64,000 bases of DNA from positions 16,107,382 through 16,171,381 of the forward strand of contig CM049317.1 of NCBI GenBank assembly GCA_026874595.1. The letters run 5' to 3'. The DNA comes from Sipunculus nudus. Its lineage: Eukaryota; Annelida; Sipuncula; Golfingiida; Sipunculidae. Each line of letters opens with the position of its first letter. The first letter of the stretch is position 1. Positions 20,301 through 56,394 of this stretch are shown piece after piece. Below the pieces are notes generated by a model. The model was given only the letters and a program-made list of their open reading frames with translations, had not been told where the DNA came from and searched no databases. A program made the position numbers and the translations under genes.

Positions 20301-20571
20301 TGCGGAGTTTGTGGATGAAATGCACACTCACGTCTCTGTATCCATGAAGGGCCATGCGGATTTCTACCCGAACGGCGGACTGAGCCAGCCGCCATGCTCC
20401 CAAGGATTTATGGGAAAAATCACCGGCACCGTATATAATTCCTTAATAGGAGACCAAGAAGGTATATTTATAGCGATCATTGTACATGTATATCAAATGA
20501 AATAGCTTGATTATTATTTAAGAAACTCCGGGATTAATTAAAAGCGCCATCTAACAGTTATACTAACAAGG

Positions 20572-25361: not shown

Positions 25362-25595
25362 ATAGTTCCTCTGCCTGACGTGAGCTCCCAGATCTCTTCA
25401 TAAAAGAACAAAGGTCTGGACTGTTCAACTTTGTGTAAAATAACGACGATGAATCTGCACAACCGACATCTAGTGCTGCTTTTACGAACAAAGACAATAT
25501 CCATTTTATTAACCGGAAGTGCTGTTATTATTTCTAATGTTCTCTTATTTCATACCCTTTTTTAATCTCAAATAAAGTAATTCTTTGTTGCATCA
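25362..25595 (+). other. Lipase copy 2, 3' UTR terminal exon
   Basis: Acceptor ttatttttcag at 25361, matching the copy 1 UTR acceptor. Ends shortly after the AATAAA at 25571. The intron before it, 22517-25361, is packed with repeats. The stop lies only 13 bases before the junction, too close to be expected to trigger nonsense-mediated decay. Confidence 0.65.
25571..25576 (+). promoter_or_regulatory. Poly(A) signal of lipase copy 2
   Basis: AATAAA followed by a T-rich stretch, about 210 bases into the terminal UTR exon. Confidence 0.6.
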
Positions 25596-27272: not shown

Positions 27273-27381
27273 ATGGAGGAACACAGACCTGGAAATATCG
27301 TCGCCATTATTTTGGCGTTTATATCCTATCTCGTCGTTATTGTATTTAACGTACTTGCGTCAGCACCAAGTATAGGTGGGG
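27273..27381 (+). CDS. TspO-like protein, exon 1
   Basis: 109 bases, ATG in context accatgg, phase 1 donor. Encodes M-E-E-H-R-P-G-N and one hydrophobic helix. Too short to stand out as an open frame. Confidence 0.78.
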
Positions 27382-30300
27382 GTAAGTACAGTCAACATGC
27401 TAGGACAAGATAATTCTGGGTATATAAATGTATGGACCTCCTCAAAGGGTAATCTCGTTAGTAGAGAATGAAGCATGTGTTTCCATATATCAGGGGAATA
27501 CCAGAGGAAAAACAAAACAATACACAAAGAAACAATATGAAATATTGATCTACCTTGTTAGCAAGGTTTTCTGTTATAAATCTAGATACCTGACGTTTGT
27601 TTCACGTTTGTGATTTATTACGGATGGTTCGTAATTTCACTCTCGTGTATACTACTTCCAGCACAGTCAAATATAATATTATCCCTTGAAGCGGGCTATT
27701 TACTGGTTATTTATCCCCCCCACCCACCTTCATGGTGTATATATTGCAATGTTTGTCTAAGCGTACTCAGTTGTCTGTGTGACCATGGTGTGTTTACCCT
27801 CTGATTTAAACAATGACCACCAGGTGGCACTGAGAGTGATCATGCTTGCATAACCAGGCAGGCTAAATTTAAGCTGCAGTTTATTATGTAGTTCATATGG
27901 TTAAATTGAAAAAAAAAATATTCAAATATAAAATAATGGTCAACAATGAAAACAATGCTATTTGTATCGGAACATCCATCGAGGATCATAATAACAGTAG
28001 TCAGTAGTCTGATGTAAATTTCCATTAATTCAGAAATTTCAGTCGAACAGGTTAACCACTCTTCTACTCAAAACGAATCTCTTTTTGACAGGCAGTGTGA
28101 GACGCCCGGGACTATAATTTCTATCAACTGACAAACTTTAAAATATAAATTTGTTACATTCAAGGAAACATCTTCTGTTTATATTTCATAAGCTTATGCT
28201 TACTAAATAGTAATTATTCAATGGAGTACTTACCAACAAAACAGCCATGTTTATGTAAATTGCCTGGAAACAACTCTAATCCAACTTATTTGAACGAAAT
28301 ACATGGCCCTCTTCACAACATTTTACCTGCACCGCTGGTGTATTTAGAAGCCGCGGTGCATTCTGGGGGCCAGATTTTGACTTCCATAAACCGTATTCTT
28401 ATTAGTCCGAGAGTAATAAATGTAATTGTCTTTCCACCAGGTGATCAGTCGTGTTTTTGAAATATTTTGTTTGTGTGTGTGGAGGTAACCGTCTCCATTT
28501 TTTAAATGCTAACTTAACTTTGTATATGTATATCTGCAGTATTCCATTCTGGTTTCGGACTACGTTACAGGGCAGTATCATACGCTTCCTCTCATTTTAT
28601 ATCCTGGCGTCAACCAGGCCCGGTGACTACTGCACCTGTGGCCCTAGGTGCGTTATCGTCCCCAATGCTGGGTCAGACCACTCGTTTTTGAGTGAAACAT
28701 GACCGTTGGGCATGACCTTCCCATTAAGTCTGCAGGGCGATCACACAAGCTTGAAACCGACCGTGAAAAAATCTCATCTGAGAATCTTCTGGCTTTGAGT
28801 CCTGTTCTCTGCCCCTGAGACACAGAAGCAAATATTATCAGTCAAGTTATTAAGGATGAATATTCCTCTTATTCTTAGGGGGGGGGGGGATTTTTGCGAT
28901 TTTCACATTTTATCTGCTTCGTGAGTGTTCAATATTTATAATGTGAGCATGTTACTACCCAGAGAACATACAATATTATAGGAAATATTAAATATTCCTG
29001 TACATTTTAACAGTTTTAAAGACTGAGAACCCAAGGTTTCATCTGATGAGTAGAAACACTTTGTTCATTATTGACAGATAGAAATTTTATATTATTCATA
29101 ATATTAGTCTTCGATTTATGTGTAACACAAAATATGTTTTACGAAAATCAACCCTCAGACTTTCGAGATTCAGCGATAATTCAATTGTTGGGCCCAAATT
29201 CGTAGGTCCATTCGTTCATAAGGGATGGTTCATTTGTGAATATTTCTTTATGACGTTCTCTAATCCGGATCATGTTCCGGATCATCACCGAAATCCAAGC
29301 GATTTTTCATTGGCCCTTTCACGAACAGCCCTGAAGATTCCGTTCATGATTGCTTAAGTTATGGTGTGAACAACACAAACACAGCCACAAACACTGACAT
29401 AAACACACAGGCGAACGAGGATAAACTTCGGGCAGAGACAATTAACTGCAATCTAGAAAGCCTTTGATTCTTTGATGCATTCTCTACAGAATACAGGCTT
29501 TTTCCCCCCTTCTGCTTTAAATGGCATGTTACGGGATAACTGTTTAAAAAATGTGAATATGCTTCCTACATGTTCGAAACAAATAAGATATGTGTATAAC
29601 GTTTTATTTCATAGGTTTGTTCTTCAACCAGACTGGGGCTATAGCCGGCGTGTACCCGCTTGACATCACGCCAGCAGGATGGGCGTTCAGCATTTGGGGA
29701 ATAATTTACGTCTGGCAAGGGCTGTTCATCTTGTACGCTCTGTCCACGCTGTGCCGCGGTACAGCTTACGGCAAGCTTTACGTCTATCCATCCGTGCTGA
29801 CAGCAGCCTTCTACGTCATGTACATATTCAGTATGGCGGGAAACGTAATATGGTTGTTCCTATGGGATCGGCATCTGATTGGTCTAGGCTTAGTGACGTT
29901 GGTGGTCGTTTGGCTGGCGCTGATTGGCTGCGTGTTGATGTCGCTACGCGGGCTGTACCAACACGGGCCTTTGTATGTCCGCGAAGAAAACCTGAAAGAA
30001 ATCTGGTTTGTACGTATTCTGGTGCATAATGGACTTGGAATATACCTAGGATGGTCCACTGTTGCAATGCTGCTAAATATGGCTATTGTTTTGGCTTATG
30101 GAGACGGACCAGCTGGAAATATTAAACAAGAAACCGCAAGTTCTGTGTCTGTCTGTGTGCTGTTGGTCGGATACATAAGCTGGTTCTTTCTGGACACATA
30201 CCAATTTGATCAATATAGTCGCTATTTGGTGACACCATACTTTGTGATTACTTTTGCAATGGTAGGATCCGTGGCAAAGAATTACCACAAAGGAGGCTCA

Positions 30301-30474
30301 AATCTCGTTCTGACGATGACAGTCCTGCTGGTGTCCGCCATCTTTGGAATAATGAAAATGGCGGTGCTGATATACAGACACTTCAAGAGCCCCATATGGG
30401 CCAGAGTTTTTGTGCCGCAAAGCTTCTTTGAGAGGAAACCGAGTTACGGTTCTTCCGATTACGTCAGACTGTAA
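27273..30474 (+). CDS. TspO/MBR-like multi-pass membrane protein (322 aa, 2 exons)
   Basis: Joins 27273-27381 and 29615-30474: donor g/gtaagt, acceptor ttatttcatag, the split codon being Gly37. Residues 9-29 form a first membrane helix. After F-F-N-Q-T-G comes T-P-A-G-W-A-F-S-I-W-G-I-I-Y at about 55-68, which resembles the signature of long tryptophan-rich sensory (TspO/MBR-like) proteins. Seven further hydrophobic segments follow, with W and Y at their edges, ending in a short polar tail. Known for TspO relatives: binding of porphyrins or other small hydrophobic ligands in membranes. The function of this longer animal type is not established, so only the family-level resemblance is claimed. 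ATG 27273 is chosen because it gives a good helix and a perfect join. Confidence 0.8.
28140..28400 (+). repeat. Dispersed repeat, copy 2 of a pair
   Basis: catcttctgtttatat, ctggtgtatttagaagcc and ggtgcattctgggggccaga match 9500-9780. In the TspO-like gene intron. Confidence 0.6.
28590..28815 (-). mobile_element. tRNA-derived SINE, partial, in the TspO-like gene intron
   Basis: Reverse orientation copy of the same family: complement of gtcgattt-type head, with gaccgtgaaaaaatctcatc and gctgggtcagacc recognisable. Truncated at its 3' end. Confidence 0.65.
29185..29450 (+). repeat. Dispersed repeat ending in gcggaggcaat, copy 4
   Basis: Has ctaatccggatcatgttccg and ttccgttcatgattgc, and a CA-rich tail. 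In the TspO-like gene intron. Confidence 0.62.
29615..30474 (+). CDS. TspO-like protein, exon 2
   Basis: 860 bases from the acceptor to TAA at 30472-30474. The in-frame sequence just before 29615 is intronic: the acceptor fits and exon 1 joins so that G-G-G-L-F-F-N-Q runs without a break. Confidence 0.85.
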
Positions 30475-30773
30475 GGGTTTACATAATATCTGGATTATAA
30501 TACCAATGATGTAGACACCAATATGTAGGCACCAACATTTTCTACATGGTGTTTGTTATCAATTTTTCAATGACTATTGGAAAATAGAAAGCCTTTTATT
30601 ATTGACGACTCATTTCTCGATATTAAATATATAAAGCATTTAGAAAGTCGGTTATGTTTAAACGCAATACGTTAGCAAACGGTTTCATGTTATGTCGCCA
30701 GCCCTCTCAAATCTGGACATTTAGAATTTATGAATTGGTATTTTCTGATTTATTATTGCCATTTACTATTTGC

Positions 30774-30774
<1 letters not shown>

Positions 30775-30811
<37 letters not shown>
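30775..30811 (+). repeat. (AT)n microsatellite
   Basis: Within the likely 3' UTR or downstream flank of the TspO-like gene. Confidence 0.95.
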
Positions 30812-30814
<3 letters not shown>

Positions 30815-31176
30815 ATTTGTTTGTATCTGATTTGTTTAGAGCTTATTTATATATAGTAGGTGTATCACTTGTGGACAAACGCCAATGTTTTAAAAGTAGG
30901 AAAGTATATTTGACTGTTTGGTATCAGTAATGCTGGAAAACATAGGTATGATTATGAGCTGCTGTAAAACTATGTCGAGAAGGGATTTTTTTTAATTCTT
31001 TTAATTCGAAAATCATTGGCTTATTCCCTTCTTTGAAAAGCCACAAGAACAAAGATTTTAACTGTTATGAAGAGAGGATATGAAAAGGGATTATTAACTG
31101 TTATGAAGAGAGGATATGAAACGGGAATGTTTAAGATTTGTATTTATACAGGAGAAATTAAACACGCTGTGAATCA

Positions 31177-31182
31177 AATAAA
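31177..31182 (+). promoter_or_regulatory. Possible poly(A) signal of the TspO-like gene
   Basis: First AATAAA noticed downstream, about 700 bases after the stop. Position is plausible but unconfirmed. Confidence 0.35.
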
Positions 31183-31489
31183 AACTTCATAAAATTAATG
31201 CTCAGGCAATCAGTTTAATGCTATGCAGTGTTTCAGCATGAAACAAATATGTTCTTTAGTTATTTGTAATCTTAAAAATTGTAACATATTACAAGTAAAC
31301 AATCCCACGATTTTGCTATAAATATAATATTCTTTACATCTGTGTAAGGCACCTATACATTTATCTTCTTCTGTAGAATGTATGTAATATCTTGCTTACT
31401 CTTCATTCATATTTATAAAATGTAATTGAATCCTGTGAAGAAAAAATCTTATAATGCCTCTGTAATGGAATTTAGAGCTCGGCCATCTG

Positions 31490-31700
31490 TAACCTGTTCG
31501 TAAACACGGGATTTGCACTAATTTTAACGAACAGAAAACCCATGTTACCTAAGGTGGTTGGTCGCATGTTTGTGGAAACTGAAAGATCTCTTGTTGCAAA
31601 ACACTTATTTGCCGAAAGATGTATTTGATGAGTGTGTTTTGCGGGCCCCACATGTTATAAATACGTGAGTATAAACAAAACCAACAGTTTGTGTGAGATG
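31490..31700 (+). repeat. Dispersed repeat, tataaacacg family
   Basis: Shares catgttacctaaggtggttg and atgttataaatacg with 195-560. Confidence 0.6.
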
Positions 31701-32129
31701 GTATCATCATTTTTTGACATATGTTTATAAAGGTTCAAGGAATTACATTTACATGGTTTTAGGTTTTACGCAGGTTAAATCAGTGCTGTCCGGTGATCGA
31801 CGGGTCCCAGATAATCCCAGATTGTAGCCAGCTGGCAAATATTATTAATTTCTTTACACAAAGACACGATCTTAGCGAAGATATTTTCGCTCTGTTGCCT
31901 GCCATTAAGTACAAGTATGTGTCTTAAATTAATTAATCGTGCTCTCGGCCTCATTGCCTTGACAACCCTTGTTACGTCACATGCACCAAGAACATATATA
32001 TGTATAGCAATCAATTGCTCTTGGACAATTAAAGTGACCTTTTCACCGGGGTTCCCTGTAGAATATTTTTATTTCTGTTTAACGCCGTGCACACATTAAT
32101 GAACTATAGGTAATTCCTGCCTCTGTGAC

Positions 32130-32985
32130 GGATGTATTTGTTTATTTGCAACCTGTTAGTAAACATGGTATACATGAACCCATATTGACAAAAAGAAAAA
32201 AAAAACACATGTAACTGAAATAAGTTGGTGGCATGTGTGTCAAATACACGAGGTGAAGCGTCCCGCAGAGATCGCGACACGATCCGTCACAGAACTGTCA
32301 AACACCGGGCGGTTACGTAATAATTAGCTGTCATTCTGATGGGTGACAGCACGTCACCACATTCTGACAGTAACCAGACAGTGAAACCACACTAACCAAA
32401 AAAACTCAAGTTTGAGCACCTATGCCGACATAAATTACAATGTTTACAAATCGGACGCGTTCTTTGTACCGCATGTGACTAAATTCTATCGGTCTCAACG
32501 ATGTATCATACTCACTACTTTGCCTGAATCAACTTTGAAAAGTTTCGACCCTTATTTCGGTAGCTAAATATTGATATAACTTAAAAATCTTACCAGCACA
32601 ATTTCGTCTTGAATTTCTCTTTTGAGCAGTAAACAGGAAATTAAAATCCGGGCATGCGCAAGAGCGCTATATACCGCACCAAACAGGTACTGCGAGCAAG
32701 ACGCCGGTCACAATTCCTTATGGCCGACCAGCGTGATATACGTGCGTAGCGCCGCCTACCGGAAATGCAAGTCCCTACTGAAAGGTTACAAGCTGCAAAA
32801 CCCCATTTGCAAAACTCGGGTCCCCACTGTCTTGCCAACATATGTCCTTTTTGGATGTGTTTGGAGAACTTTGGCGGTCCGCCCACGTGTTATAAACACG
32901 GGAATATAAACAAAACCAACAGTCTGTGTACATTAGGATCGGCCTCTCCTTGCTTATTTTATTAAAGGTTCGTGGTATTATCTTT
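32130..32985 (+). repeat. Dispersed repeat, tataaacacg family, split copy
   Basis: The first part (32130-32265) matches the start of the family and the last part (32850-32985, cacgtgttataaacacggg) matches its end. About 585 bases of unrelated sequence lies between, perhaps an insertion. Confidence 0.5.
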
Positions 32986-35900
32986 AGTTATTAGACGACA
33001 TATATCCGAATAAGCCAGTTTAAGGAAGCGTGCGTCATATGCCATAGTAGTTCCGGTTACATAAGCTTCACCAGATGTTGAATGATGCGTTCTGCGATTT
33101 AAGTATATTTGAAAAAAGATTCTGTATATAAAGAGCGGAGTGATTAAAGTTGTAAAGTTGTTGTGATGCCAGTAGATAAAAAAAGTTTCATCAGTAGTAT
33201 TATTATCACAGAGACTGTTAATCGAGGGGTTCATCGACCGCGCTTCTAATTAAATTCTAACCCTTTTGTATTAGCCAATACACAGACTACTTATCATATC
33301 ATTGCTAAATAAACATGTGAACTGCTAATAAGAGTAGTCTTTTACCTTGCCACGAATTGCTGAATTTTGCTGTACATTCTTAATTCATCATAATTGCCGA
33401 ACAATGCAGGTTTTGATAAAAGTGCCAATTCTTTTACCAGACATGTTAAGTTGGCATGAAGTATAGAGGTATCATCGTGAAATAAAATTCTGGTAATATT
33501 TACCATGGTTTCGTTCGAAAACATGTTCCTCGCACCTGTGCACAGCGGAAGTGAATTTGTACTGGGTGCGATCAGTGGGACGATAGAAAATATAAAGCTG
33601 GTGTCCTGCACTACCATCATAATTCAAGTCCAGCTTATTTGTGATTCTTAAATAGCACATCTTCCTTCCCTGATATTAAGTTTTAGCACATGCGCAATAT
33701 TAACGATCGTACATCCGGCCTTGTATATTATAATAAACAGACACACACTGGTTTTATTCTTCAACACATAGAACCAAAACAATTTGTAAAACAGAAAAAA
33801 AGAGAGTTAGCATGTAAGTCTGGTTGATTTCGCTTAGAACTGATCTAGAAAATAAAACAGAGGATTTAGATACTTTTTTAAAATCTTTTTTTTCGGAGAT
33901 AAGAAAAATGATTTTTCTTTATCGAAATGTCGGATCCGAATCCTTAGTTTCAGTCGTCGCCAACAGAGGCCGTTACTCTTACGGATGGAGAGGGTTTATT
34001 TACGAGATCAAAGTTAAAACATGAAATATCACATAATACGAAGAAAAGTACTCTTTGGAAGAAAGAACAACGATTTTTCATATAAAGGCGCTTTACCTGC
34101 GAATGTCTTATGGTCAATATAATAAGAGCATATAAAACTATTAATGATGTGACGTTACCTGCTATAAGATACAAGAGGTTTTAAATAAAAAAATATTTTG
34201 ACCTTCTGATGAAATTAAAATACTTCCTGCATCTCAGACCATCGCCGATATAATACGGTTAGGGCAATATACTTTGGAAAACATCAGAAGGCCCAGGGGG
34301 TCTGCCCAAAAAAACTGTCACAGGTCCGTTAATCGAATGGCACATTTGCACTGTTTGTTTTGAAAATTCATACAGTTTACACCCGTGACTGAAAACCACC
34401 ATTGACACTAGTTCCCCGCTATGATCGTATTCACCGAGGCATGCGATGCCACAACCTATACTCAGGGGCAAGGTTTATTGAAGCAAATGATAGATCTTCT
34501 GCGTATAGAATGAAAATGCCTGTGCATCTTGTGGCAAACCCTCGTGGCGGGGTCGTCACGGCTGACAGATGATGGACGTACTGATGAAAGGGTGGGCGAG
34601 ACTGAATGAAAACATTTAACCCCAACAGTCTTCATAAAGACCGCCAGGGGATCATAACCTGACGGAAAGGTCAAGGTAATACCGTACTGACTCGAATGTG
34701 TCTGTTTTACCGTACATAAATCAGATGAGTCAGGATATATCGCAAGGTTTACAATCATACAGAAAACAACGACGTCTCTGGTAAGTACTGATTCCTTATG
34801 TATCCTATACATACCTAAATAATGTACATATTGGAATATACATGCAGAATTAAGATGGCCAACAAATAAAATTTTATAAAAGGCTTTCATTTTTATTGTC
34901 GGCGTCAAAAATAAACACTCACTTAAATTGGGTTGATAAGCATTATATATAAAAAAAAAACTAATGAAAATGTCCGAGGTCATCACATGTTGTCTCTTGG
35001 TGAATGTTTAGGCTGTTTTATAAACATACTGGATATAAATTACAAATGCCATACAATCATCATTAATTTTATACAAATTTCACTCAGATGTTTGCATAAG
35101 TAGATGTATGTTAAAATATACATATGATGTGGTAAATTATCGTCGAGAATGACAAATTAAATTCAAGTGCAGTTAACTTATCATTTCCTCACCAACTTTG
35201 AATTCATTATTTTAATGAAAATTTGATTTATATTTTTAAATTACTTATTAATAATGAATAATAATTTACTTTATATATGCATGTGTGACAAAGGGTCTGA
35301 AAAAGTAAATGGTTGTGTGACATGTGTGTTTGCATTTGAGGAACATGAGGTTTTATTGTATATCAGGTAATACAGTGCAAAAAGAAAACTTCGATTTTAA
35401 GACACACACACATCCTCACACGTACACACACGCTCTCATGCATGCATTAGTAAAAGATAGTGTAAAAACAAACAAAATATAATGTATAAGATATAATTTA
35501 TCATCTATAATGTTTACAAAATGATAATGAAATATAGTGCCGTACAACCACTAGGCACGAAGAAGTTTAATAACGTACAAATTTTAATTAAATTTATGTT
35601 CAATATAAGTATTTAGATTTATTATATATTCAATACAAATAAACATAAGGAATTCTTATAAGGAAAAAGTCATATAAACACACAGAATTTGTCCATAATG
35701 AAATATACACATTTCAAAGGATATGAGTCAGACATGCTTAGAATACCGTAAGTAGCCCCGCGCGTTGTGTTCCGTTTACTTCCACATATTACCCTTTATT
35801 TAAGTATGACCGGCCGTATGGATCAGTGATCATAATTGCGCTATGGCGTGACATGCAGCATTTTGTGTTTTTGATAGCAAAGGGCTATTAAAATAAGTGT

Positions 35901-36300
35901 TTTGAAATTGGTGGGAAACATCGTAGATGGGGAATTCCATCGAAATGGCCATAGGAAATTATATATAAAATACCTTATAAAATTTGTGAAAGACATATTA
36001 CCAAACTGAAACAAAACTGTATTTCCAAGTGTGATCTATCGTACTGGGTTAAGTGATTTTAATTAATCAGCATTGCTCTTTTATTAACAATATTCTTATT
36101 CATTGAAATATTGATTTGAATATGTTATGATAGATATAATGCATGTACACACATACATGAGAGAAAAAAAGAAATAAGTAAATTGTTAACATTAATCATT
36201 TTGAAAAAAAAACATTCAGATTGAAGGACTGGAGGATACCTAATATAAAGGGAAAGGGCAAATGCACTCGCAGTCTATGCAATTTATTTTTTAAAGCGCT

Positions 36301-36420
36301 ATGTGTCGTTATTTATTGTTTATACAGTTTCTCATTGTAGGATACCTAGCCGAAGAACAGAACTATCAGTCATCAACCATTGCCACTACACTGTGTCTCC
36401 AAATGTCTGAAAATGGCTGA
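36301..36420 (+). CDS. Possible signal-peptide ORF upstream of the mucin-like gene
   Basis: A 39-codon frame starting ATG-TGT-CGT encodes M-C-R-Y-L-L-F-I-Q-F-L-I-V-G-Y-L-A, which looks like a secretion signal, followed by a Ser/Thr stretch. It sits 107 bases before the ectodomain acceptor. No strong phase 1 donor is seen inside it, so the link to the gene is only a possibility. Confidence 0.25.
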   Translation: MCRYLLFIQFLIVGYLAEEQNYQSSTIATTLCLQMSENG

Positions 36421-36525
36421 GGTCTGATCTGTCAGATGACTCTTGGAATATGGAAAGAAAAATGATACGGAACCTGATATTTCACATAAAAAATGAAGTT
36501 ATATTTTTTGATTAAACGGTGTTAG

Positions 36526-37395
36526 ATATGGCTACCACGGTTTCTTCAATAAGCACCCTTTCTCTCGTTGTCAATAAAACTGAGAAATCATTGAATATGA
36601 ATCCAACATTGACACCGTTAACAGGGGTCCCTTCTAAAAAGAGCGGGGGAGCTATAAAGACACCCAAAGCTACCACGGTAAACAAGGCAACGGTTATGAC
36701 AACACAAAAGTGGAAAAAGAAAAGGACTAGACGTCCGCCCGTAAAGCCAACAAAACGCGATCCCCAGGGCTTGGGCACAACAATACCAACCGTAAAACAT
36801 AAGAGCTCATCAAAGCCAACACCCATGATGTCCTCATCAAAAAGTACCTCGGTTACCCAGACAGCTTCATCGTTTTCCCCTACGGTCCCTACCACAGATA
36901 ATCCAACACAAAAAGAGACGGCTTCATCGAAGGTAACAAAGAAATGGCAAAAGAAAACAACTCCTACATATAAAACTAAATCAACTTCGTCAACAGGTTT
37001 GTCTTCGAGCGCTGGGACCGTATCTGTGACCGATAAGCCTTCCACCCATTTATCTGTCACAACAAAAGGGTTCGCAAAAGGAACAACCAAACGAAAATGG
37101 ACAAACAAACCAAAGCCAACGGCAGTCACAAAACCTGTGTCCACAACCTTACAGACACAAACTGCAACAACATATAAGTCCCCAGCTGTGAACACGACAG
37201 TTACCATGACAACATCACTTAAAGATGGAGGAATCAAACCCGTAGCGACGAGAGAGCAACCGGTTAGGACTACCGTAAAATATTCAGGGACTCCCACTTT
37301 TAAGCCTCTGTCGACGAAGGTGCAATTCAAGACGCCAGTCGGCAAAATAATAGCGCCGACCAGTACATCAATGGGTGAGGAGACGAACATGTTGC
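36526..37395 (+). CDS. Mucin-like protein, ectodomain exon
   Basis: Begins at a probable acceptor; first complete codon is ATG 36528. Contains three Trp-centred basic clusters (K-W-K-K-K near residue 61, K-K-W-Q-K-K near 138, K-R-K-W near 188) in otherwise Thr/Ser-rich sequence. The antisense strand is also open over 332 codons, which is a by-product of composition. Confidence 0.8.
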
Positions 37396-39194
37396 GTAAG
37401 TTGGTCTGTTTACTTCTCTTACCTGGATAACAATGTTGTAGTCGAATCACGAACCTACGAGGCCCAGGCCAAGGCTGAGTCTCCAACCTCCGAGGCCGAG
37501 TCACCACCAACCAAGTCAGTCAGAGTCCATAAACTAAGATTTATTGTCTGAATTTTGGTATATATTATAGCTTTAATGCATGTATACAAGAAAAGGTTAA
37601 ACTTGAGCGGCCTGGAACCGGCCTCGGGCCATGTCACCGAGGCTAAAAGGCCCTATAACCGAATCCGAGTCCGCGCAATAGCTATCTAAGGTCTGCAACA
37701 CTGCTGGATAAGTAATTGCTATAATTATCTAATGGATAATTAATCTCAATGATTCTTGTAGCTTTTCTCGGCTGGAGCACACAACACTAGCAGCCATAAA
37801 AGTCGTTCGAAGGTAAATGGTCCTACATATGCCTGACGCCAATGACCAGTCCCCATTCACTCCTTGGTGGAGAGACCGCATCCTTGTGGTAAAGACTTTG
37901 GCCAGGAGTCTAGGGGCGGGGGGGGGGGGGGGGGGGGGCGGTCAGAACGAAACGCGAACGCACAACCTTGCGATCGCTGATATTTAACCTTATCAAATTG
38001 TGCTCTCTTCTGACACCGTATATATTTTGTTTGATATAAGACGATGGAAATGCAATTGCATGCGATTAAATATTATCAATTTAAACGTATCCAATGCACA
38101 TATAATCACCCACAAACGCAATTGCATTAAAAACCTGGTTCGCCTTCTGTCATCTTGGTATTGTTGTGTATCTGGGTAGATACAATTAAATTTCCAATAG
38201 AGAACATGCAGGGCATCTCATAGATCCCTAATATACCTGGCACATAAAGTATTATCAACAGTGACATTTTTAAAATATTTACATCATTACTAATTTGTTT
38301 TTATTTTTATTTTCTTATAGCCATGTACATCGGCGTGTCAGTAGGCGCTGTTGCGTTCATTGCGTTTGTGATCGGACTTGTTGCGGCTCTCATGTCCGCT
38401 AGGTGAGTTTAATTATAAATGTAAATAATATGACGTTATGTTAACTAAATGTTTATCAGCAAAACCCTATAATTTCAATGAAGAGACTGACAATCTAAAA
38501 TAAAAAAAATAGACAATTACATGTATGTAGAAACATAAATGTAAATATTTTGCCCATAATATAAGATATAAAACTTGGTACATCTTTTTTGTAATTTTTT
38601 GTAATTTTAATTCCCGAATGGTATTTTATTAACTGCACTTTATCTTTCTTTTGGACGTTGTTCAATTTATCTCGAGGGAATTTGTTCGAATTCATGTGAA
38701 AGTTATTTCTTCTTCCAATGGTAAATGATGAAACTTTTGACTCTCTAAATCATTATAAATGTGTATTTTTTTTCACTTAGTTTGTAAATCTGTGTTTCAA
38801 TACTTACAGGCGAAGAAACAAGAAAGCAAAAGAAACAAAAAGGGCAATGCTCCACGCAAACGAAACGAGAAGACACATGACTGATGTCGACAGGGGTGAC
38901 AGCTTCAGTAGTGGCTCCACCGGGTGGCCAACACATGAAGTACACAGTGTCAGTAGCGACACCAACTGGCCGTCTATGAATTCATACCCTCACACACCGA
39001 ATCAATATCAAGAGAAACCTAGCTATCCAACAGAAGGCATATACGAGGAAATTCCAATTGATAAAGTGTCGTCTGATAAACCCAGTAGTATCAGTAGTTA
39101 TGGCGGCCTCCCGCGTGACGTCAGAGCTGATTTGACCCACGAACAGAGAGATCGTAAAATGAGCTGGTCCTCTTATACAAGCCACAACGCCTGA
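36528..39194 (+). CDS. Mucin-like single-pass membrane protein (444 aa as modelled)
   Basis: Joins 36528-37395, 38321-38402 and 38810-39194, phases 1 then 2, with donors c/gtaagt and ag/gtgagt and acceptors ttcttatag and acttacag. Residues 1-289 are rich in Thr, Ser, Lys and Pro, with few large hydrophobics and no Cys beyond the join, typical of an O-glycosylated stalk. Residues about 291-315 are one membrane helix (M-Y-I-G-V-S-V-G-A-V-A-F...), followed by R-R-R-N-K-K as a stop-transfer. The 128-residue tail has several Tyr, one of them in I-Y395-E-E-I-P-I-D. No signal peptide precedes Met1, and an acceptor ggtgttag lies at 36525 just before it, so an upstream exon probably supplies the N terminus. 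Family not recognised. Confidence 0.78.
38321..38402 (+). CDS. Mucin-like protein, transmembrane exon
   Basis: 82 bases devoted almost wholly to the membrane helix, phase 1 in and phase 2 out. It joins M-L-P to M-Y-I-G-V-S-V. Confidence 0.82.
38810..39194 (+). CDS. Mucin-like protein, cytoplasmic tail exon
   Basis: Starts by completing Arg, giving R-R-R-N-K-K-A-K-E-T-K-R, then a Ser- and Tyr-rich tail with Y-P-H-T-P, Y-Q-E-K-P, Y-E-E-I-P-I, S-S-Y-G-G and a C-terminal S-S-Y-T-S-H-N-A. Stop TGA at 39192. Confidence 0.82.
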
Positions 39195-39542: not shown

Positions 39543-39548
39543 AATAAA
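39543..39548 (+). promoter_or_regulatory. Possible poly(A) signal of the mucin-like gene
   Basis: AATAAA about 350 bases after the stop codon, the first one seen downstream. Confidence 0.45.
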
Positions 39549-40360
39549 CTTTACGCAAAAATACTCGTTATACTATAAATTTATTCCTTATATTAAATTT
39601 AATATCTGCGGAGTATTATATGTAATCCTAAGATCAGACCTCCGGTCACACAGTCTTAGTTATGATGTACAGACACGTGGACTTTGTTTACTTTCCAGAG
39701 AACCAAAACAATATATTAAACATGCAAATTAGAGATACCAAGTTCGTGTGCTTAGATGGTTTGCTGGAAAACCTTTGTCTTCAGTCAAAATGAACTAATT
39801 GCGGGAGATAATACACCTTATTTTGCATATGTACCTTTACAGGATAAGATTTAAAGGACTAATATTCTGATTTATAACATTGTAAATCACATTGGAAATA
39901 CACTGTTAATAGCTATTTCGAAGCCAAAATTTAACTCTTGTGAGTCGAAAGAAGGAATATCATAAACATTTAGCCATTTTTTTATGAGTAAAATCGAGGT
40001 TATCTCGCTCTTTCGACTGAAAAGTTCGCTTAAAGGTGGGCGGAGAAGCGTATCATCCGTCTCCTTAAATTAACAATGAGCCAGTTGCTCTATGTATAAA
40101 TCATTCATTTTTTCAATCATCACATCATACTTAAAAGAATATAATGTAACCGAGATTTATCCGTTGGGCACACTCTCGCTTCCTGGTGGTGAAAGAATAC
40201 ATCACAACTATGTATTGGCCAGAACGTTCATCTGAGAGAGGTGATAAGGGGGCACACGGCATCATCACATGTCAACGTCAGAAATACTTTTAAGTATGAA
40301 GCATCTTGAAAAATGCCTGTGACTAAACCGTTAAACCTATATATATATAAAAAAAACAAG

Positions 40361-40734
40361 ATACTGTGGTGGGCTCAATCTTCTCAAGGCTAATTTTCGC
40401 GATTTTCAATCTTTATTGTTTTGCGGAGGTTCCATTTTCGAGATCGTACCATGTGGTAACTTACACAGAGTACATTCGTTATCTCATTACTTAGTGTGCG
40501 CGCTAAATCTTAACTATCTGACAAGGACCCACAAGAACCAGTGAACAATCTTGTCCCCTATAGAGATATGATATGAACTATCTGATATCATAATGTCAAC
40601 CTTTGATATGATTATATATGACTCTTCACATACATGTATAGATGAGGCGTCTAAGGTTTCATTTTCGCGATATTTTCCCTTTCGCGAAAATCGCGAATTT
40701 GAAACACTCGCGAAATGATGTCAACCACAATATC
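40361..40734 (+). mobile_element. MITE, TGTGGTTGG family, copy 3
   Basis: Starts atactgtggtgggctcaatc and ends gatgtcaaccacaatatc; the interior ttcgcgatattttcccttt is shared with copies 1 and 2, with an insertion in the middle. Confidence 0.72.
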
Positions 40735-42039
40735 TTACTCTAGAATAAGAATAACCGGCAAAACTAGACTATATATAAATATAGTGGGGAATGAAGAGTT
40801 TCCATAATATACCTATCGATATTGATAACAAATACTTAACGACAAGAAAACAATTTCAAGTGCTCGAATTTTCCCATATATATCATGGCCGTTATTTAGT
40901 CTGTAGAAGGCTCTTACGCCCACCAAGCGTTTTATAACGCAAACCCTGGCGATTTTGATCACTGAGGTATGAAGAAGTGTGTAGATGAATCATTTAAAAA
41001 CTAATTTTAGGTTTTATATGGATATGACATTTCTGTGAACTCAATAGTAGCCCATAAAATGGATCGTGTCCTTGATTTTATGTCGTTGGGGACATCCGTC
41101 TTCACAAAGAATTTAAGGTCATTGACTACCACTAGATGGCGCAAATAGACAACTTTAGTACCTTATTTTCTCGTGTTTTTTTTGTAATAACTGTAAATTG
41201 CTCATTGGTAAATTTTAAAATTATATAAATACATATAACATACTCTATAAATACAAAAATTAGCTTAAACAGGCCATGTTATAGTACTGCGTTTAACATT
41301 ATCAGTATTGTATCTGGTGCCTAGTTCCGACAAAAATTGAATAAACTACGCCTTTTGCAAATCCTTTCTTGGCATATTCTACAGTGTGTCTACGCAAACC
41401 TTGAAACAATGTTCACATATACACCGTAAATGTCTGGTAATTAAAGGTCAGTGTCATACACTGAAAACTGAGAAGACACATACACACAGACACGGATACA
41501 TCCTAATAGCATTTTTAGAAATAATCAGATGTTACTCAAGATATCCGACTCCCCGGGATCGGAAATGTAGCTTGTTTTCAAAAACTAACATTTGGGTACA
41601 ATATTGTCCGAAGGGAGATTTAAACCTAAAATATACTTTCGACCTTGAGTAATTTCCAAGGTCGTAAATTCCATAGCCAGATCCCCATTATCGCTCACTT
41701 GTGGGCGTTGAGGTGGGGGTTGATTGGTTGTTTGTTTAGGGGAGGGGGGAGGGGGAGGGAGTAGATCGTGGTTCATGGATCACTCTGCGATTGCACACTT
41801 ATAATTAATTCTTTCTTGAATATCTCCTGTCATTGGGAGCATAATCTACTAAAGGGTTTTCGTGAGTTTCAAGTTCAAATAGCTTTAGTATTAAAGATAC
41901 ATGTGTTATATCGAATGGCTATAGTTTACAAATTCAAAACTCATGTTTTGACCTATTCGTCTTGAATTGCCAATGGTCTTAAAAAACAAAAACTTCCCAT
42001 AACACACAAACGCTTATGGTTATACAGTTTTAAACGGAC

Positions 42040-42238
42040 CTAAGGATTTTTACTTTAGTGGTGTTGGTAGTTCCAACTATAGTGGTGTTGGTAATTTCAA
42101 CTTTAGTGGTGTTGGTAATTTCAACTTAAGTGGTGTTGGTAATTTCAACTTTAGTGGTGTTGGTAATTTCAACTTTAGTGGTGTTGGTAATTTCAACTTT
42201 AGTGGTGTTGGTAATTTCAACTTCAGTGGTGTTGGTAA
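42040..42238 (+). repeat. 24-bp minisatellite, about 8 copies
   Basis: Unit agtggtgttggtaatttcaa plus cttt, near perfect. 24 bases equals eight codons and the frame S-G-V-G-N-F-N-F is open from about 42001 to 42261, with no ATG. Confidence 0.93.
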
Positions 42239-42725
42239 AGAGAAGAATTTGTATTTATAATTATATAATTTGTCAGAGATACCTCTTTAAGTTGCATTAA
42301 ATTGGACTCTGTTTATCACATAACTAAGGGTGGCGCCAGACTGAAGGCAGAAAATTTGATTTAGTGTGCAAATAAATTTAAACGCACCGGGGTGGTAATG
42401 TCGTCATGAATGAGTTTCAAACCAGAATGGAAGCACGCTCTGTATAGAGGGCCCCACAATACGTCAGGTCAAACGTCTAGTTACGAGACAACCGAGACAT
42501 GGGTTCTCATTCTATATTCATCATATACCCAATCACTAATTTTATCATTTAACCAACTGTTCAGCCTATTGTTGGAAAATTCAACCGCGTTGGCGATCGC
42601 ATAAACCACACAATCTGAGTTATTGCTGTGTAACACGGCATTCACTACCGAAACATGTAATTTAGATTGCTCCAAGTTGTAGATTTAGCAAAGCTATATT
42701 TCTATAATGCTTTCCGACATCCCTA

Positions 42726-44430
42726 CTGGGCTACAATTTGGAGTTGGAAGCGAGGATGAACTGTCGTCTTTGTTTTTTTTTTCCTGTTACTATTACTCTC
42801 GCCAAAATCAAGTCTAATTCTCACTCGTCTTTGTGCTGAATTTTTCAAAATTAATTTCGGTGTTTTTTTAACCGTAAAATTATGTAATGGCGTTTTGGCC
42901 GGGGTAGCTTGTGTCGTACCTTTTTCAACAGAACCCTGTTTAGTTTTTTGTTTCGAAACGGGAACCGAGTCATCTAGGTCGCGGGAGATTACTAACGAAT
43001 TCCGAATTATGTTTTCATCTTTTGTCTCCGCATCAGCATACAACAAATCTCATTGAAGTGACGGGAGATCAGACATGAACAGATATACTGTATCTTTATC
43101 TTTTCAACTATTAGTTCCGGGGCGCAAGTATCCTTGGGGAATGGTTGATTGTCAGATTTTTCTAATAAATGCATATATTCTGACTTTAAATGATAGAAAC
43201 ACAAATTACAATAACCCTGCAAAATTTCTTTCACTTAATAATTTTTAAGATAATAAAAGCACAGCGTCAAGGTATCTGTTGGTGCTTCTTTCCAATTTCT
43301 TAGATGTTTGATTACAGCATTAAACGATTCAGCTCCGTTTTTGGTAACTTCGGAGGCACTGTCATACACTTTAAACTCTTCTAAAACAGGCCTGTATGCG
43401 TATTTCGTCAAATCTGATTTTAGATGCTTATCAACATATTCACTTACAGTTACCAGCTTCTGTGGCTCAGGAGTTGAGCGCAGGACTCAAAGCCGGGAGA
43501 TCGTGGGTACGAATCTCAGCCGAGGCGGTGAGGTTTTTCACGGTCGACCCCCATCCAGGGTGAGTGCTCTGAAGGCTTAATGGGTAGCTGTGTGGGGGGT
43601 TCCTCGGTGTTATGACCCAGCAATGGGGACGATTACACACCCAGGACCCGCGGGTGCGGTAGACACCGGGCCTGGGTGACACCAGGATGTAAAAATGATA
43701 GGAAGCGAGTGCTACCGCCCTGTCAAGTAGTCCCTAACCGAAATGGAAACTCTGCAGATGTACATACTTACGTTAAGAATTAGATAAGTCAGCATTAAAA
43801 AAAGGAGGCGGTTACCTCCACACAAAAAATATTCACTTAAAGTTTCATGCCAATTCAGGGAAAGATTCTCTCAATTTCTTTCGAAGTCTGACGGAGAAGC
43901 ACTATGCAGAATATTGATTAAATCTACTTTGTATTCTGACCATTTCGCGTAATCATCGTGTTTTTGAACAAACCTTTATAAGTCGTTTTTAATGTGGTTC
44001 CAGCAATGTAAAATTGGGACATTTGGCAAAACGGTGGCAAAAGCATTTGAGATTGCCCTTTCCCTATCAACAACAAATGGAACACTACATTTCTTGAGGT
44101 TCGGTACACGACGAACGAGTGATCGCATAAAATCCTCATGTTCATACTGCAGTTTTTTTTTTTCATGTACCATAAAAGCCAAAAGAATGAACAAGGATTC
44201 TTTGAAAATTTCATATGTCTGTAACAGATAGGTGAAACATAGAAGTTGCCTAGATTGAAAGTGGTGTCATAGACACAGAATACTTGCTCGCTGCTTTTTG
44301 CAAGCAGAAGTTTGTTGAATTCTAATAAAATTTCAGGTAGCCATGTACAGGCCAAAATCAGGATACGTTTAATTTCATACACGAAATCTTTTAACTCGTG
44401 CGCTATTAAGTTTGAATTGTAGAAGTCATC
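42726..44430 (-). pseudogene. Decayed MULE-like DDE transposase (interrupted by a SINE)
   Basis: Reading the minus strand in shifting frames gives Y-D-T-T-F-N-L-G-N-F-Y-V-S, then F-V-V-D-R-E-R-A-I-S-N-A and H-C-W-N-H-I-K-N-D-L, then N-G-A-E-S-F-N-A-V-I-K and N-W-K-E-A-P-T-D-T-L. These motifs match MULE-type transposases: the first Asp, the second Asp with the following C-W-N-H block, and the Glu region with its spaced helix. There is at least one frameshift near 44190, stops near 43978, 43886 and 43250, and a SINE at 43450-43828. A basic tail continues to about 42726 in another frame. Inactive relic. Confidence 0.68.
43450..43828 (+). mobile_element. tRNA-derived SINE inserted in the transposase relic
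   Basis: The head has a pol III B box-like gggtacgaatctcagccg. The body runs through aggtttttcacggtcgacc and ggttcctcggtgttatgaccc, and the end is gaggcggttacctccac plus A-rich tail. Flanked by atattcacttacag (43436-43449) and atattcacttaaag (43829-43842), a 14-base target duplication with one mismatch. Confidence 0.85.
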
Positions 44431-44687
44431 ATATATGTTTTCATTTGTCTTCTATTAACTTTAATAAAATTATGTGATATAATACGTCATGGAAATTAAT
44501 AAGGTAACAGCGGGGCAATGACAATTAAGAGAGAGAGAGAGACAGGAAGAAAAAGAGAGAAGAAGGGTGATGGTATAGGGAAACAGATTAAGACTGTATG
44601 TGTGTGTGTAAAAGAGAGAGAGGAAGAAAAGGAAAGGAGAATGAGAGATGGTAGGACATATAGGGAAACATATTAAGATTGTGTGTT

Positions 44688-44688
<1 letters not shown>

Positions 44689-44745
<57 letters not shown>

Positions 44746-44761
44746 GGGGGGGGGGGGGGGG
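44689..44761 (+). repeat. (GA)n followed by poly-G
   Basis: About 27 GA units then 18 G. Other homopolymers: 21 G at 37918-37938 and 18 C at 46891-46908. Confidence 0.95.
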
Positions 44762-45284
44762 TTAACACCATTTACATAACTACAGGGGCAAGAAAGTGGA
44801 ACTGCTCATATTTTCAAAGTATAAGGGGTTTCGTTTGGCGTACGATGAAAGGATAATAGGGATACAGGACTTCAAATAGCTACAAAGGATTAATTAGCCT
44901 GCCGAGGTCTCTTGGTCATCACAGTCCGTACACATAAACAATATAACTCCATAAATGAATTCGTTTGCCTTCAACGGTGCGCAACGGAAATTAATGAGTT
45001 TATCATTAAATTTGCAAAATGGGCCATGTCTCTGGATGAGCTACACCATTAATGAGGTTTGCCCGTAATAACTGTGTACACACCAGCACCTGCCTGAAGC
45101 CCAGGCGCGCCGGGAAGAGAATCCATAATTAAGTAATCAATTAACTTTGATGATAGTATCCTCGCGCTGCCCAATAAACCTATTAGAAAATAATCACGGT
45201 ATCATTTTTAAGGTGTTAAAACAAAATAAAATGTTTATATGTATGTATCTATTTATAATACTTAAGTTCTAAATAATTACATTA

Positions 45285-45450
45285 TAAAACCCGGTAAAAT
45301 CTGGTGTTATTGCCAAATAAGTAAACCACTTACATGTAATTGACATAGTATTTTATGTTTTATTTTTTTGTATAATTATGTTTTAAACCCGTTAAAATCT
45401 GGTCTTAGTGCCAAATAAGTAAACCACAAAATTTGACATAGTATTTTAAA
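45285..45450 (+). repeat. Direct repeat, two copies of about 70 bp
   Basis: gtaaaatctggtgttattgc, caaataagtaaaccac and attgacatagtatttta occur twice, offset by about 96 bases. Non-coding. Confidence 0.8.
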
Positions 45451-46109
45451 CAATATACGTATTTTATTGTCAGTTCCAATCAATCAGACTCGTTAACGAT
45501 ATAACATATCAGAGCGGGAAAGTCAGATATGTAGGTGGCGGCATCTGTTGTGGCGAGTGGGAATCAATGGGAAGCGGATCTCCGAGCAATATGGCGGTCT
45601 CCGGATGATCTCCGGGTCGTCTCTGGGTAAGGTTTCCTTGGATAACTCAATTAATACTTTGTGCACTTGCAAATTAAGTATCATATTCGATGCGGATGTC
45701 ATTAGGGGTGTATCGGGAAGGTTTTAATACAAATCGCTGCCTTATTAATTAAGATATTGCGATCTCCAGGTTTTATTTTGAATTCCGGCCGGAGATCTCC
45801 GGGTTTTAGATACACCCTCCCTACCTTTTGTTAATATCCACGTGTAAACAACATGTGGGGGGCACAAATATCCAAACACTTTCAACAAAGACAATCTCTG
45901 GTGGCAAGTCAGACGAATGCCTGTTTTGAAAATGGCTTGTTGCAATTAGTGACCTTTCCACTTTCATAGTTTACTTTTTAAATATTGCTGTGTTTACAAT
46001 CAACTTTTAGAAAACCAAGGTCAAACATCCAAAACAGAGGCGTTATAAGAATTTTTCATTTAGTTTATTAATATAAAGCCAGAGTAAGAAAGAAATCCCA
46101 TTAATTCTA

Positions 46110-46300
46110 TAAACACGGCAGGTGAATAGTAGATTTTAATTCAGGCAGGTGAATAGTAGATTTTAATTCAGGCAGGTGAATAGTAGATTTTAATTCAGGC
46201 AGGTGAATAGTAGACTTTAAGTAAGGCAGGTGAATAGTACACTTTAAGTAAGGCAGGTGAATAGTTGGCAGGGTAATAGTAGACTTTAAGGAAGCGTGTC
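46110..46300 (+). repeat. 27-bp minisatellite
   Basis: About six copies of ggcaggtgaatagtagattt plus taattca, the later copies shorter and variant. Non-coding. Confidence 0.92.
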
Positions 46301-48171
46301 CTTACAGGAATACCTGAATGTGATCCTAGACTTATATTGTAAACACACACCTGACACTGTTCTTAAACCCTAAGTATGAATTGTGATGCGGTGCGTATGT
46401 TGTGCAAAGCCTGGGCCCATGGGGTTTGAATTGACGGTCCCCAAAGCGATGCGACCCGATCGTTAGGACACTGAACCGTGGTCACAACGGTGTGGTCATG
46501 GATCACTGACAATCGCGGACATGCTTCAGTTCATAATAAAAGGAGATATTCAGGGTAATTCATATCCATGAGACCGGAAACATGGACCTTAATTAGAAGG
46601 AGATGCACACGGGAAAACAAGGTACGGATTTTTAAAAATGTAATATCTTTATTAGGAGAGAGAGACAGAGAGTTAGTTGATCATTTGCATTAATACAAAT
46701 GTTAAAGACGAACTCATATACAGTAAAATATCTACACGGGGTGGTTTGTTAGGGTGAGGGAAGGGACAAGGGGGTGTGCATAAATACAGGGACGACTGGC
46801 TCCCTTTTAAAACATCTTTTATGAACTAAATAATCCTAGAGTTTTTGATTTCATATAGAAAACCTCTCTTTGAATTCCACGAGCGTTAAACCCCCCCCCC
46901 CCCCCCCCACGAACAATTAAGTATCAACAGTATCAGACAATCAACATTAAATCTAATTGGATATCATCATCGATGACTGACTCTCTGACACACTTGTGTC
47001 AATCATTTAGGAATTGGAAAGCTGTCAAGTTGTCAAAAATTAAGTGGGCTGGAATTGTTATGGCGTTAATCAAAATATTACGCATATATGTACATATCTC
47101 CGTCTCAAGTAAATTTCTATATGAAATCTTGAAAAATTAAGATTAAAATAATATTTTATTTATTTCATATGTCATATGTCATTGTTATACAGTATGTATA
47201 GATTTCACATCTTTTTTTTACAGTTTTATATTTTACCCCCGTTTGGTTTTTTTCTGCTTCTTAAAAAAGAAAATATATTGTCATATATTATATAAGATAT
47301 CATACTGACCCATTAAAGCTAGGGACTCAGTCATACAAACGATTACAGTATGGCTATATTATAATCAAATGATACAATAAAATTCTCGTTAAAAGCAAGA
47401 AGACAAGGGGTGATAGTGAATAAAGACTAACCTTTGCGACTCGGGCAAGCGTATCTTAACGGAAAATGTATTTAAATGTTATGCCCCATCAAAATTATAT
47501 TTATATATATTTTATATATATATTTATTTTATATATATATATATATATATACATATATATGTGTGTGTGACTAGTCTCCTTTAAATGGTTTTCAGACAAA
47601 AGAAATAAGCAAAACGTTTGCTCTAGATCACGAAGTTATAAAATGCGAAGACGTCTTATTCATAATAAATTAAAATAAATAATTATTTTTTACCATTTCA
47701 GTCAATTTGTCAAATAAATTGACCAAATCTCAGTGAATCTGCGGATTTCCTTAACGTGTCTGTCGATTAATAAATTGCTTCAGTGAATCGGGTTATATTT
47801 GTTGGCAACTTACAAATGGCTGATTTTACAAATTGACTGTAACAGGCATGCGTACATATAAATCTTATAATATTATTAATAATAAAACACATACATTATT
47901 TCAAATTTAACACCAATCATGTTGTGTATTTTTAACTTGAATATCTTGAGTTTAAAAAAAGTAATCATTAATTAAGTTGTTTCAACCAACTCGAAATATT
48001 GAAGTGTCACTCTTTAATATGCAAACCAAAACTATTTCAACCGATCGCAGGTAACTGTGAAAATGATATGTAGTTCCGCTACTTATTTTCTGTAAATTAT
48101 TAAATTCATTTTTATTTGTTTCAGAGAGTTATGAATTAAGCTGAAACAGCAGTTTCAGAGGTGACGTCATC

Positions 48172-50208
48172 ATGAAAATTCGCCGGTGCCTGGCCAGCTC
48201 ATGGAGGCGATGGAAACCCATGTCTGGATATATATCGGTTCTTTTTATAGGCGCAGTAGTCCTTAATATATACCTTTTCAAACTCCACGCAGACCAAGGT
48301 CGGTCCGATGGTATTTATGTCAATATACAGAAAACTACAGCAGAATGTCCAGTTATTCGTCTTCCAGTTGGACTTATAGAATCCTATAAAGCCAGATTTC
48401 AGAATGTCAGCAATGCAGGTACTTTAGTGTATTCTGCATATTTCGATGAACGTTTGCCAAGAAGTAGAACAGTTCGCATTCTCGCGTTATCAACACCTGG
48501 TCCGAAAACACTATACTGTATATTTTGGTACAGAGACGGCCGCCGAGTTAGTGTTCTTGCAAAGGTCCAAAATCTATACCAGAGACAACACTCGACCACT
48601 TCCGCTTATAAACACTTCCCGACTATTTTCCAGTGTCCGGAATATTCTGGACTTCCGCCTGCCGTAGTATCTCTCGCCACGCGTTCTTGTGCCGATGACG
48701 TCAAAAATCATGTGTTGATATATACCATTTCCGCCAACATGAAACCGACCGGACAAAAACTAGGGATATGCCATAACACTCTACAAAGCGTAATGAACCC
48801 TCACGCTGTGGTGGAGTGGTTAGAAATGCAGCGCCTCCTAGGGGTGAGCCAAGTAACTTTTTATGGAGTGAAAGACGTATCAGATGACGTCATCAACGTT
48901 CTTTCATATTACAAAGCTAAACATTTTGTTAAAATCCAACCTTGGTCTTTGCCTTGGCCTTCAACACGAGAACCATTGGAAGGTCCACCAGAGATACATG
49001 AGTATGCCGAACAAATTATGGTAAATGACTGTATATATAGATATATGGATACTTTTAAATACCTTGCTTTTCTGGACTTCGATGAATACATTATACCACA
49101 CCATGAGGGCTCTCAGACTATTCAGGATATCTTAAGCTATATAAACAAAAATGTACCTAGATCATATGCTAGTTACATGTTCGGCCATAGTCATTTTTGT
49201 CTGGAGAAATCACACTTACAGTCAAAAAAGAATTCATTTGTGGGTCTAGAAATACTTAGTCGTAACGGAATCAACTGGTCGTTGTCAAAATCCGTTGTGG
49301 TTCCGTGGAACATTAAGGTCATGGGTATACGATACCCCTTGGTAACGCTGCCCAATAAAGTTTCCAATGTAACTGTCCGCAATACATTAGGCTTGCTTCA
49401 TCATTACCGGGAGCGTAGATACCCTTCCATTGAGAAAGTCAAAGTGCCTCCTTGTACCATCACAGACACATCAATGTTGAAATTTACGGATGACTTAATA
49501 CGAACCTCTAATAAAGTTTTGTTCGATAATGGATTGTCTTACCGAAGATTGATCGAGCACCACAGCAGAATACTCCGGGCTTCGAAGAAACTTGATTTGA
49601 GATATGATCCTTTAGTTGAAGGAATAAGAGATAAATTTCACTCGCGAAGGAAAAAACTGAAAGAGATGATAAAACAAAAACCAATGAAGAAGGTTGGAGG
49701 AAAAGATCATGTTGAAAAAGTTGCTGCCCATTTAGGGAAGATCAGGAAAGAATATGAAGAGAAAATGAAACGTTTAACGAGATTGTTGGAACAAGGAAAG
49801 AAAACCGAAAGTAGATTAACTGCCCTGGGAAAGATTGTAGTTGTAGAATCTGAGAAGCGGGGCGAAAGTGAGGCTACGAGAGCTGGCAGTGATGCAAATC
49901 CCTCACACATGAACGCCACGTCCAAGAGCATGTTAATTAATGACGAAACAAATAACGTCACGTCTGAAACTGAGTTTGGTAGTGATGACTCTGTTGAGAA
50001 TCAACCAGACGGTGGGCCTGGGTACAGTAGCGAATTTGGGGTTGATAAAAATATTGAAAATCCATTGAACAGTGAGGAAAAACTTCAGAGCACGACAGAT
50101 AATGAAAATGGTGTCCGTTATGAATCCGATGATACTTACCAATACGACGAAATGCACACTGAAGAAATCGACGATGTGACCCCAGAAACTGAAGGTGATG
50201 GAACATAA
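48172..50208 (+). CDS. Glycosyltransferase family 92 (DUF23) type II membrane protein, 678 aa
   Basis: Single coding exon, with an acceptor tttgtttcag 47 bases upstream of the ATG implying a 5' UTR intron. Residues 19-37 are a signal anchor after a basic N terminus (R-R-W-K). Family marks: Y-S-A-Y-F-D-E-R at 87-94, V-V-E-W-L-E-M-Q-R-L-L-G-V at 213-225, and D-C-I-Y-R followed by L-A-F-L-D-F-D-E-Y-I-I-P at 298-309. The D-F-D-E acidic motif is the expected metal and nucleotide-sugar site. Domain ends near 480. A Lys/Glu-rich, probably coiled stretch (485-560) and a Ser/Glu/Asp-rich tail (560-678) follow, unusual for the family. Predicted Golgi enzyme with its catalytic side in the lumen; known relatives transfer galactose to glycans, but the acceptor here cannot be inferred. 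Confidence 0.9.
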   Translation: MKIRRCLASSWRRWKPMSGYISVLFIGAVVLNIYLFKLHADQGRSDGIYVNIQKTTAECPVIRLPVGLIESYKARFQNVSNAGTLVYSAYFDERLPRSRTVRILALSTPGPKTLYCIFWYRDGRRVSVLAKVQNLYQRQHSTTSAYKHFPTIFQCPEYSGLPPAVVSLATRSCADDVKNHVLIYTISANMKPTGQKLGICHNTLQSVMNPHAVVEWLEMQRLLGVSQVTFYGVKDVSDDVINVLSYYKAKHFVKIQPWSLPWPSTREPLEGPPEIHEYAEQIMVNDCIYRYMDTFKYLAFLDFDEYIIPHHEGSQTIQDILSYINKNVPRSYASYMFGHSHFCLEKSHLQSKKNSFVGLEILSRNGINWSLSKSVVVPWNIKVMGIRYPLVTLPNKVSNVTVRNTLGLLHHYRERRYPSIEKVKVPPCTITDTSMLKFTDDLIRTSNKVLFDNGLSYRRLIEHHSRILRASKKLDLRYDPLVEGIRDKFHSRRKKLKEMIKQKPMKKVGGKDHVEKVAAHLGKIRKEYEEKMKRLTRLLEQGKKTESRLTALGKIVVVESEKRGESEATRAGSDANPSHMNATSKSMLINDETNNVTSETEFGSDDSVENQPDGGPGYSSEFGVDKNIENPLNSEEKLQSTTDNENGVRYESDDTYQYDEMHTEEIDDVTPETEGDGT

Positions 50209-56006: not shown

Positions 56007-56272
56007 CTATATAAGCTGAAAGTAATTATCCTGGATATCATATTTTTGGTATTCAGCCATGGCCTTGACATCAGTCTGAGCGGCGCCATATTTGTTGGTC
56101 CTGGAACACATCAGTAGACAGGCCAAGGAACCGGGTGAAATGACCTTGACCCCGAAAGATACGCAAAACCCTTGTTTTTGGCATTTTCTTTTACACTGCA
56201 GAATTGTGGAAACCGTCTGGTTCTGCATAATGGTCGAAAGGGACATCATATGGGTAGACGCCAAGGTCAACT
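56007..56272 (-). CDS. PAN-like terminal exon B (paralogue of exon A)
   Basis: Acceptor ttaattccacag; phase 1; reads L-T-L-A-S-T-H-M-M-S-L-S-T-I-M, L-Q-C-K-R-K-C, F-C-V-S-F-G-V-K-V, C-L-L-M-C-S-R-T-N and stops at 56007. No PAN exon lies between it and exon A, so it is either an alternative last exon of the same gene or the leftover end of a tandem copy. Open over its full length with all Cys kept. Confidence 0.58.
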
Positions 56273-56394
56273 CTGTGGAATTAATAGTATTCATAAGCTT
56301 TTCTTTCGGCGCACGACGAAATAGATTATCAAGCAACTTGAAAAAAAAAATACTTAGTACTAGAAATATGTAAAACTAGATTTCATAAGACTTA

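Follow-up and report, generated by a model that had tools for sequence, protein, structure and literature searches.

In the annelid Sipunculus nudus, a three-exon locus is probably an orphan gene whose product would be a membrane protein with one span, a Ser/Thr-rich outer part, and a predicted tail that carries a textbook Src SH2 ligand sequence. The locus lies on the plus strand of the window, by which we mean the whole 64,000-nucleotide stretch of DNA that was analyzed (GenBank assembly GCA_026874595.1, contig CM049317.1, positions 16,107,382 to 16,171,381); all positions below are those of the window. When spliced, exon A (36528 to 37395), exon B (38321 to 38402), and exon C (38810 to 39194) give 444 residues with no internal stop codons. 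Exon A (289 codons plus 1 base, ending in phase 1) encodes a Thr/Ser/Lys/Pro-rich outer region, exon B encodes a single hydrophobic, putative membrane segment, and exon C encodes a putative cytoplasmic tail and the stop codon. Both introns are of the GT-AG type, and their phases match across the junctions: intron 1 (37396 to 38320; GTAAGT...AG) is in phase 1, and intron 2 (38403 to 38809; GTGAGT...AG) is in phase 2. An AATAAA, possibly a polyadenylation signal, is found 349 bases past the stop codon (39543 to 39548). The outer coordinates (36528 to 39194) and the placement of YEEI at residue 395 are exactly those first put forward in an earlier note on this DNA.

Reading frames were compared with a small codon model, for which other genes in the 64-kb window served as the training set. 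For the tail exon, exon C, the sense frame is the sole stop-free frame among the six and has the top codon score (11.6). For exon A, one antisense frame is likewise open (335 amino acids) and scores 13.2, compared with -1.2 for the sense frame; for exon B, an antisense frame that contains a stop codon scores 5.5, compared with 4.4 for the sense frame. Exons A and B are backed by in-frame splicing and by composition, not by codon usage. We judged the sense reading to be right because the pieces form a coherent stalk, membrane span, basic stop, and tail. The exons might instead not belong to one gene: the frames might be open by chance, the gene might have decayed, or the pieces might have been joined in error. 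The higher-scoring antisense frame of exon A, the lack of a family or of a paralogue in the same genome, and the lack of a convincing signal-peptide exon between 30474 and 36527 all fit such an explanation. We consider it very improbable, however, since two phase-matched introns put the stalk first, followed by the span, the basic stop, and the tail, since open runs of these lengths are expected by chance from base composition with probabilities of only ~1e-7 (exon A) and 5e-4 (tail), and since AATAAA follows the stop codon.

The most hydrophobic 19-mer of the protein comprises residues 295 to 313 (mean hydropathy, 2.66) and is followed immediately by RRRNKK. With one hydrophobic span and basic residues after it, the predicted topology is single pass, and YEEI (residues 395 to 398), which is C-terminal to the span and to RRRNKK, would face the cytoplasm. 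The codons for YEEIPI, from Y395 onwards, occupy positions 39042 to 39059. When the tail was shuffled 200,000 times, exact YEEI occurred in just 0.07% of the shuffles and YEEIP in 0.0025%, and the looser patterns Y[DE][DE][ILVM] and Y[EDTQ][ENDYQ][ILVM] occurred in 1.3% and 4.2%, respectively. These figures overstate the weight of the motif because it was picked after the fact. Many motifs could have caught notice, and a six-frame translation of the window (120,839 residues) contains a second exact YEEI, in another frame (25391 to 25402, minus strand); both points would suit a real gene in which YEEI arose by chance and has no function. Set against the rarity of exact YEEI among the shuffled tails, we regard that explanation as unlikely.

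A second tail tyrosine, Y414, lies within SSYGGL (codons at 39093 to 39110) and fits loose ITIM and YxxPhi patterns. The usual signal for endocytosis is likewise of the YxxPhi form. With the gene and topology correct, Y395-E-E-I and Y414-G-G-L could be sorting signals for clathrin-mediated endocytosis, with no phosphotyrosine signaling. Both motifs do match this frequent tail signal, but the match means little, because 57% of shuffled tails contain Yxx[ILVMF], and a sorting role leaves the Glu-Glu unexplained; we view it as rather unlikely. An ITAM consists of two YxxL/I sequences spaced about 6 to 12 residues apart. We rejected an ITAM receptor on account of the wrong spacing, as Y414 comes 15 residues after the end of YEEI (residue 398).

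The description of the tail sequence YEEIPI as the form preferred by Src-family SH2 domains agrees with published measurements, in which pYEEI is a high-affinity ligand: among eight peptides shown, it had the lowest half-maximal inhibitory concentration on Src SH2 (IC50, 0.5 µM) (PMC2888578). A fluorescent probe with the identical YEEIPI core binds the Src SH2 domain of Creolimax with a Kd of 2.7 µM, and a value of 140 nM is cited in the same paper for a YEEIPI-core probe and a choanoflagellate Src SH2 domain; both organisms are unicellular relatives of animals (PMC5876402). The ligand seen in a structure of the Fyn SH2 domain, which derives from the hamster polyomavirus middle T antigen, likewise has YEEIPI as its core (PMC2585567). 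The tail sequence matches the standard probe core at all six residues (PMC5876402). Unlike that reference probe, the YEEIPI described here sits in a predicted cellular membrane protein.

The S. nudus genome (1.43 Gb in 153 contigs) gave 49 SH2 matches, with 80 candidates scored. Two of these SH2 pieces were compared with the PDB; the first matched FRK best, followed by Fgr and Src, and the second matched Yes, Fyn, and Src best. Both pieces are partial, and each also has matches to the phosphatase PTPN11 that are nearly on a par with those to some Src chains. Given these Src-like pieces, a plausible partner for the tail motif is present, as would be expected in any animal.

The outer region (290 residues) is 35% Ser plus Thr overall. 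A region is commonly called mucin-like if at least 100 residues have a Ser-plus-Thr content of at least 40% and some 5% proline. Ser plus Thr reaches at least 40% in 77 of the 191 100-residue windows of the outer region, and the best of these has 46% with 8% proline; hence, "mucin-like" is a fair description for part of the outer region. The same region is strongly basic (48 Lys/Arg versus 9 Asp/Glu; pI, 10.8), with 14% lysine and no cysteine. Its basic residues include three Trp-Lys clusters, at residues 61 to 77 (36708 to 36758), 138 to 151 (36939 to 36980), and 188 to 196 (37089 to 37115), all on the plus strand, that sit between Ser/Thr-rich stretches. A repeat pair with 79% identity (36701 to 36728 and 36935 to 36962) is located at the first and second clusters, which hints at an origin of the clusters by duplication. 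We can only guess that such a basic stalk meets anionic polymers.

The single-pass protein with an O-glycosylation-type ectodomain proposed in the earlier note held up at the sequence level in its Ser/Thr-rich composition and single span, with the correction that the outer part is strongly basic. The further term "sialomucin" found no support. The sialyltransferase family PF00777 had no matches in the S. nudus genome, compared with 49 for SH2 in a comparable search, although none of 14 controls matched PF00777 either, so absence is not established by this result. The outer part is cationic, and sialic acids are, according to a review, missing from most invertebrates (PMC6994554).

We found no paralogue of the 444-residue protein in its own genome (E up to 10; 15 candidates scored), the only matches being its own three exons, and the tail exon alone matched only its own locus (E up to 0.001). 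The claim that the protein belongs to no recognizable family found support at the sequence level. Pfam returned five matches, all subthreshold (best E, 0.16); one of these, Cadherin_C_2 (E, 0.21), which extends over the span into the first part of the tail, we attribute to chance. The PDB returned three chance-level matches, the best being ribonuclease F1 (E, 0.1). No counterpart of the gene was recognized in the literature among the matches listed.

Vertebrate sialomucins, such as CD34, CD43, and PSGL-1, have an extended Ser/Thr-rich outer part, one span, and a short tail. The S. nudus protein has this general layout in common with them; it differs in its basic outer part, in having no CD34-type Pfam match, and in the lack of PF00777 matches in its genome, a difference to be read with the 0 of 14 controls that matched. 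MUC1 offers a parallel in the tail, where phosphorylated YEKV binds c-Src (PMC8897942). Both proteins combine a Ser/Thr-rich outer part and one span with a Y-E-x-hydrophobic tyrosine motif in the tail. In contrast to MUC1, the outer part here is strongly basic, there is no Pfam mucin match of any strength, and no SEA domain was found. In dystroglycan, a phosphorylated tail tyrosine is an SH2 ligand that Src can bind (PMC2834674); the likeness lies in the mucin-like outer region (alpha subunit) and in the tail tyrosine (beta subunit) as an SH2 ligand, whereas the tail motif is unlike ours and no dystroglycan Pfam match was obtained. If the S. nudus protein signals, it would act like MUC1 YEKV or the dystroglycan tail tyrosine, with no sign of its belonging to either family.

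We tentatively favor, as the best explanation, a single-pass orphan glycoprotein whose tyrosine Y395, when phosphorylated, would dock Src-family SH2 domains in the way of MUC1 YEKV. The gene, apparently single copy in its genome, would code for a single-pass membrane glycoprotein, with its signal peptide, and possibly one more domain, encoded in an upstream exon. If expressed and delivered to the cell surface, the protein would present an extended, probably O-glycosylated, strongly basic stalk outside and a tyrosine-containing tail inside, and phosphorylation of Y395 would create a pYEEI that recruits a Src-family kinase via its SH2 domain. The terms "receptor" and "signalling," which had been attached to the protein, describe roles that we infer; no ligand-binding domain and no signal peptide were found in the gene model. 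A bolder version would make the protein a lineage-specific receptor, perhaps sensing anionic polymers, in which a near-ideal Src SH2 docking site evolved independently on a cationic mucin-like stalk, as an invertebrate MUC1-type analogue without common descent; we consider this improbable. At present, we have an unannotated gene for an animal membrane protein, and its short motif is suggestive. Were the motif conserved and phosphorylated, the group of mucin-like proteins with a single span and a Src-recruiting tail would gain an orphan animal member, which would suggest a repeated origin of such tails.

While the in-frame join, the splice sites, the span, and the tail were confirmed in the sequence, the start at 36528 was not. 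We doubt that the ATG at 36528 is the true start because no signal peptide, such as a single-pass type I membrane protein would carry, was evident after it, because an in-frame stop (36513 to 36515) lies just 5′ of the ATG, and because an AG precedes it. This AG (36524 to 36525) is a possible phase-1 acceptor, in which case exon A may begin at 36526, with another exon preceding it. By hydropathy, no hydrophobic stretch follows the ATG, the 12 best windows all lying within the membrane segment, and an outer part with so large an excess of basic residues would probably not be translocated across a membrane if it had no signal peptide.

Scans of frames and splice sites between 30474 and 36527 revealed no convincing signal-peptide exon joined to exon A. 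In a splice-matrix exon scan, strict thresholds listed no exon and were then relaxed. The best-looking candidate start is a short frame at 36301 to 36420 (plus strand) with a signal-peptide-like beginning (MCRYLLFIQFLIVGYLAEEQ...). As a first exon it lacks a good donor: its listed donor (36422) falls beyond the frame's own stop, and among the 12 GT joins that would connect it in frame with exon A, each has either a poor donor or a poor acceptor. A second signal-peptide candidate, at 31917, has a single phase-1 GT (32002), which is weak and matches fewer than five of nine consensus bases. A candidate internal exon (31774 to 31914), present at a single place in the genome and without a Pfam match, was set aside as doubtful; its phase is mismatched to the acceptor at 36526 and would suit a weaker acceptor at 36554. 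Part of a 73% repeat pair (31647 to 31751 and 32882 to 32986), perhaps an old mobile element, adjoins this candidate. The three plus-strand frames of 30301 to 36600 gave no Pfam matches at E values up to 1. Three shorter upstream stretches, searched in nine frames together with one minus-strand frame, yielded one match (E, 0.18) but no believable Pfam domain.

Directly upstream of the gene, 27273 to 30474 (plus strand) likely encodes a multispan membrane protein; a 295-codon frame within it had no Pfam matches at E values up to 1, and our guess is that the frame at 27273 is the first exon of that protein. Elsewhere in the window, we identified two exons of a lipase at 18980 to 20505, plus strand (PF00151; E, 4.1e-19 and 1.6e-11), and a single-exon glycosyltransferase family 92 gene at 48145 to 50208, plus strand (687-codon open frame; Pfam E, 2.6e-27). 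PAN-like exons on the minus strand at 56007 to 56375 and 62614 to 62994 (E, 0.038 and 4e-4) are both under the curated cutoff. Within 40001 to 50000 on the minus strand, there is a cornifin-like match (E, 2.5e-6) that is under the cutoff and probably reflects low complexity, and one minus-strand frame weakly resembles a MULE transposase (E, 0.0068). A 31-base tandem repeat of ~24 copies occupies 12094 to 12847.
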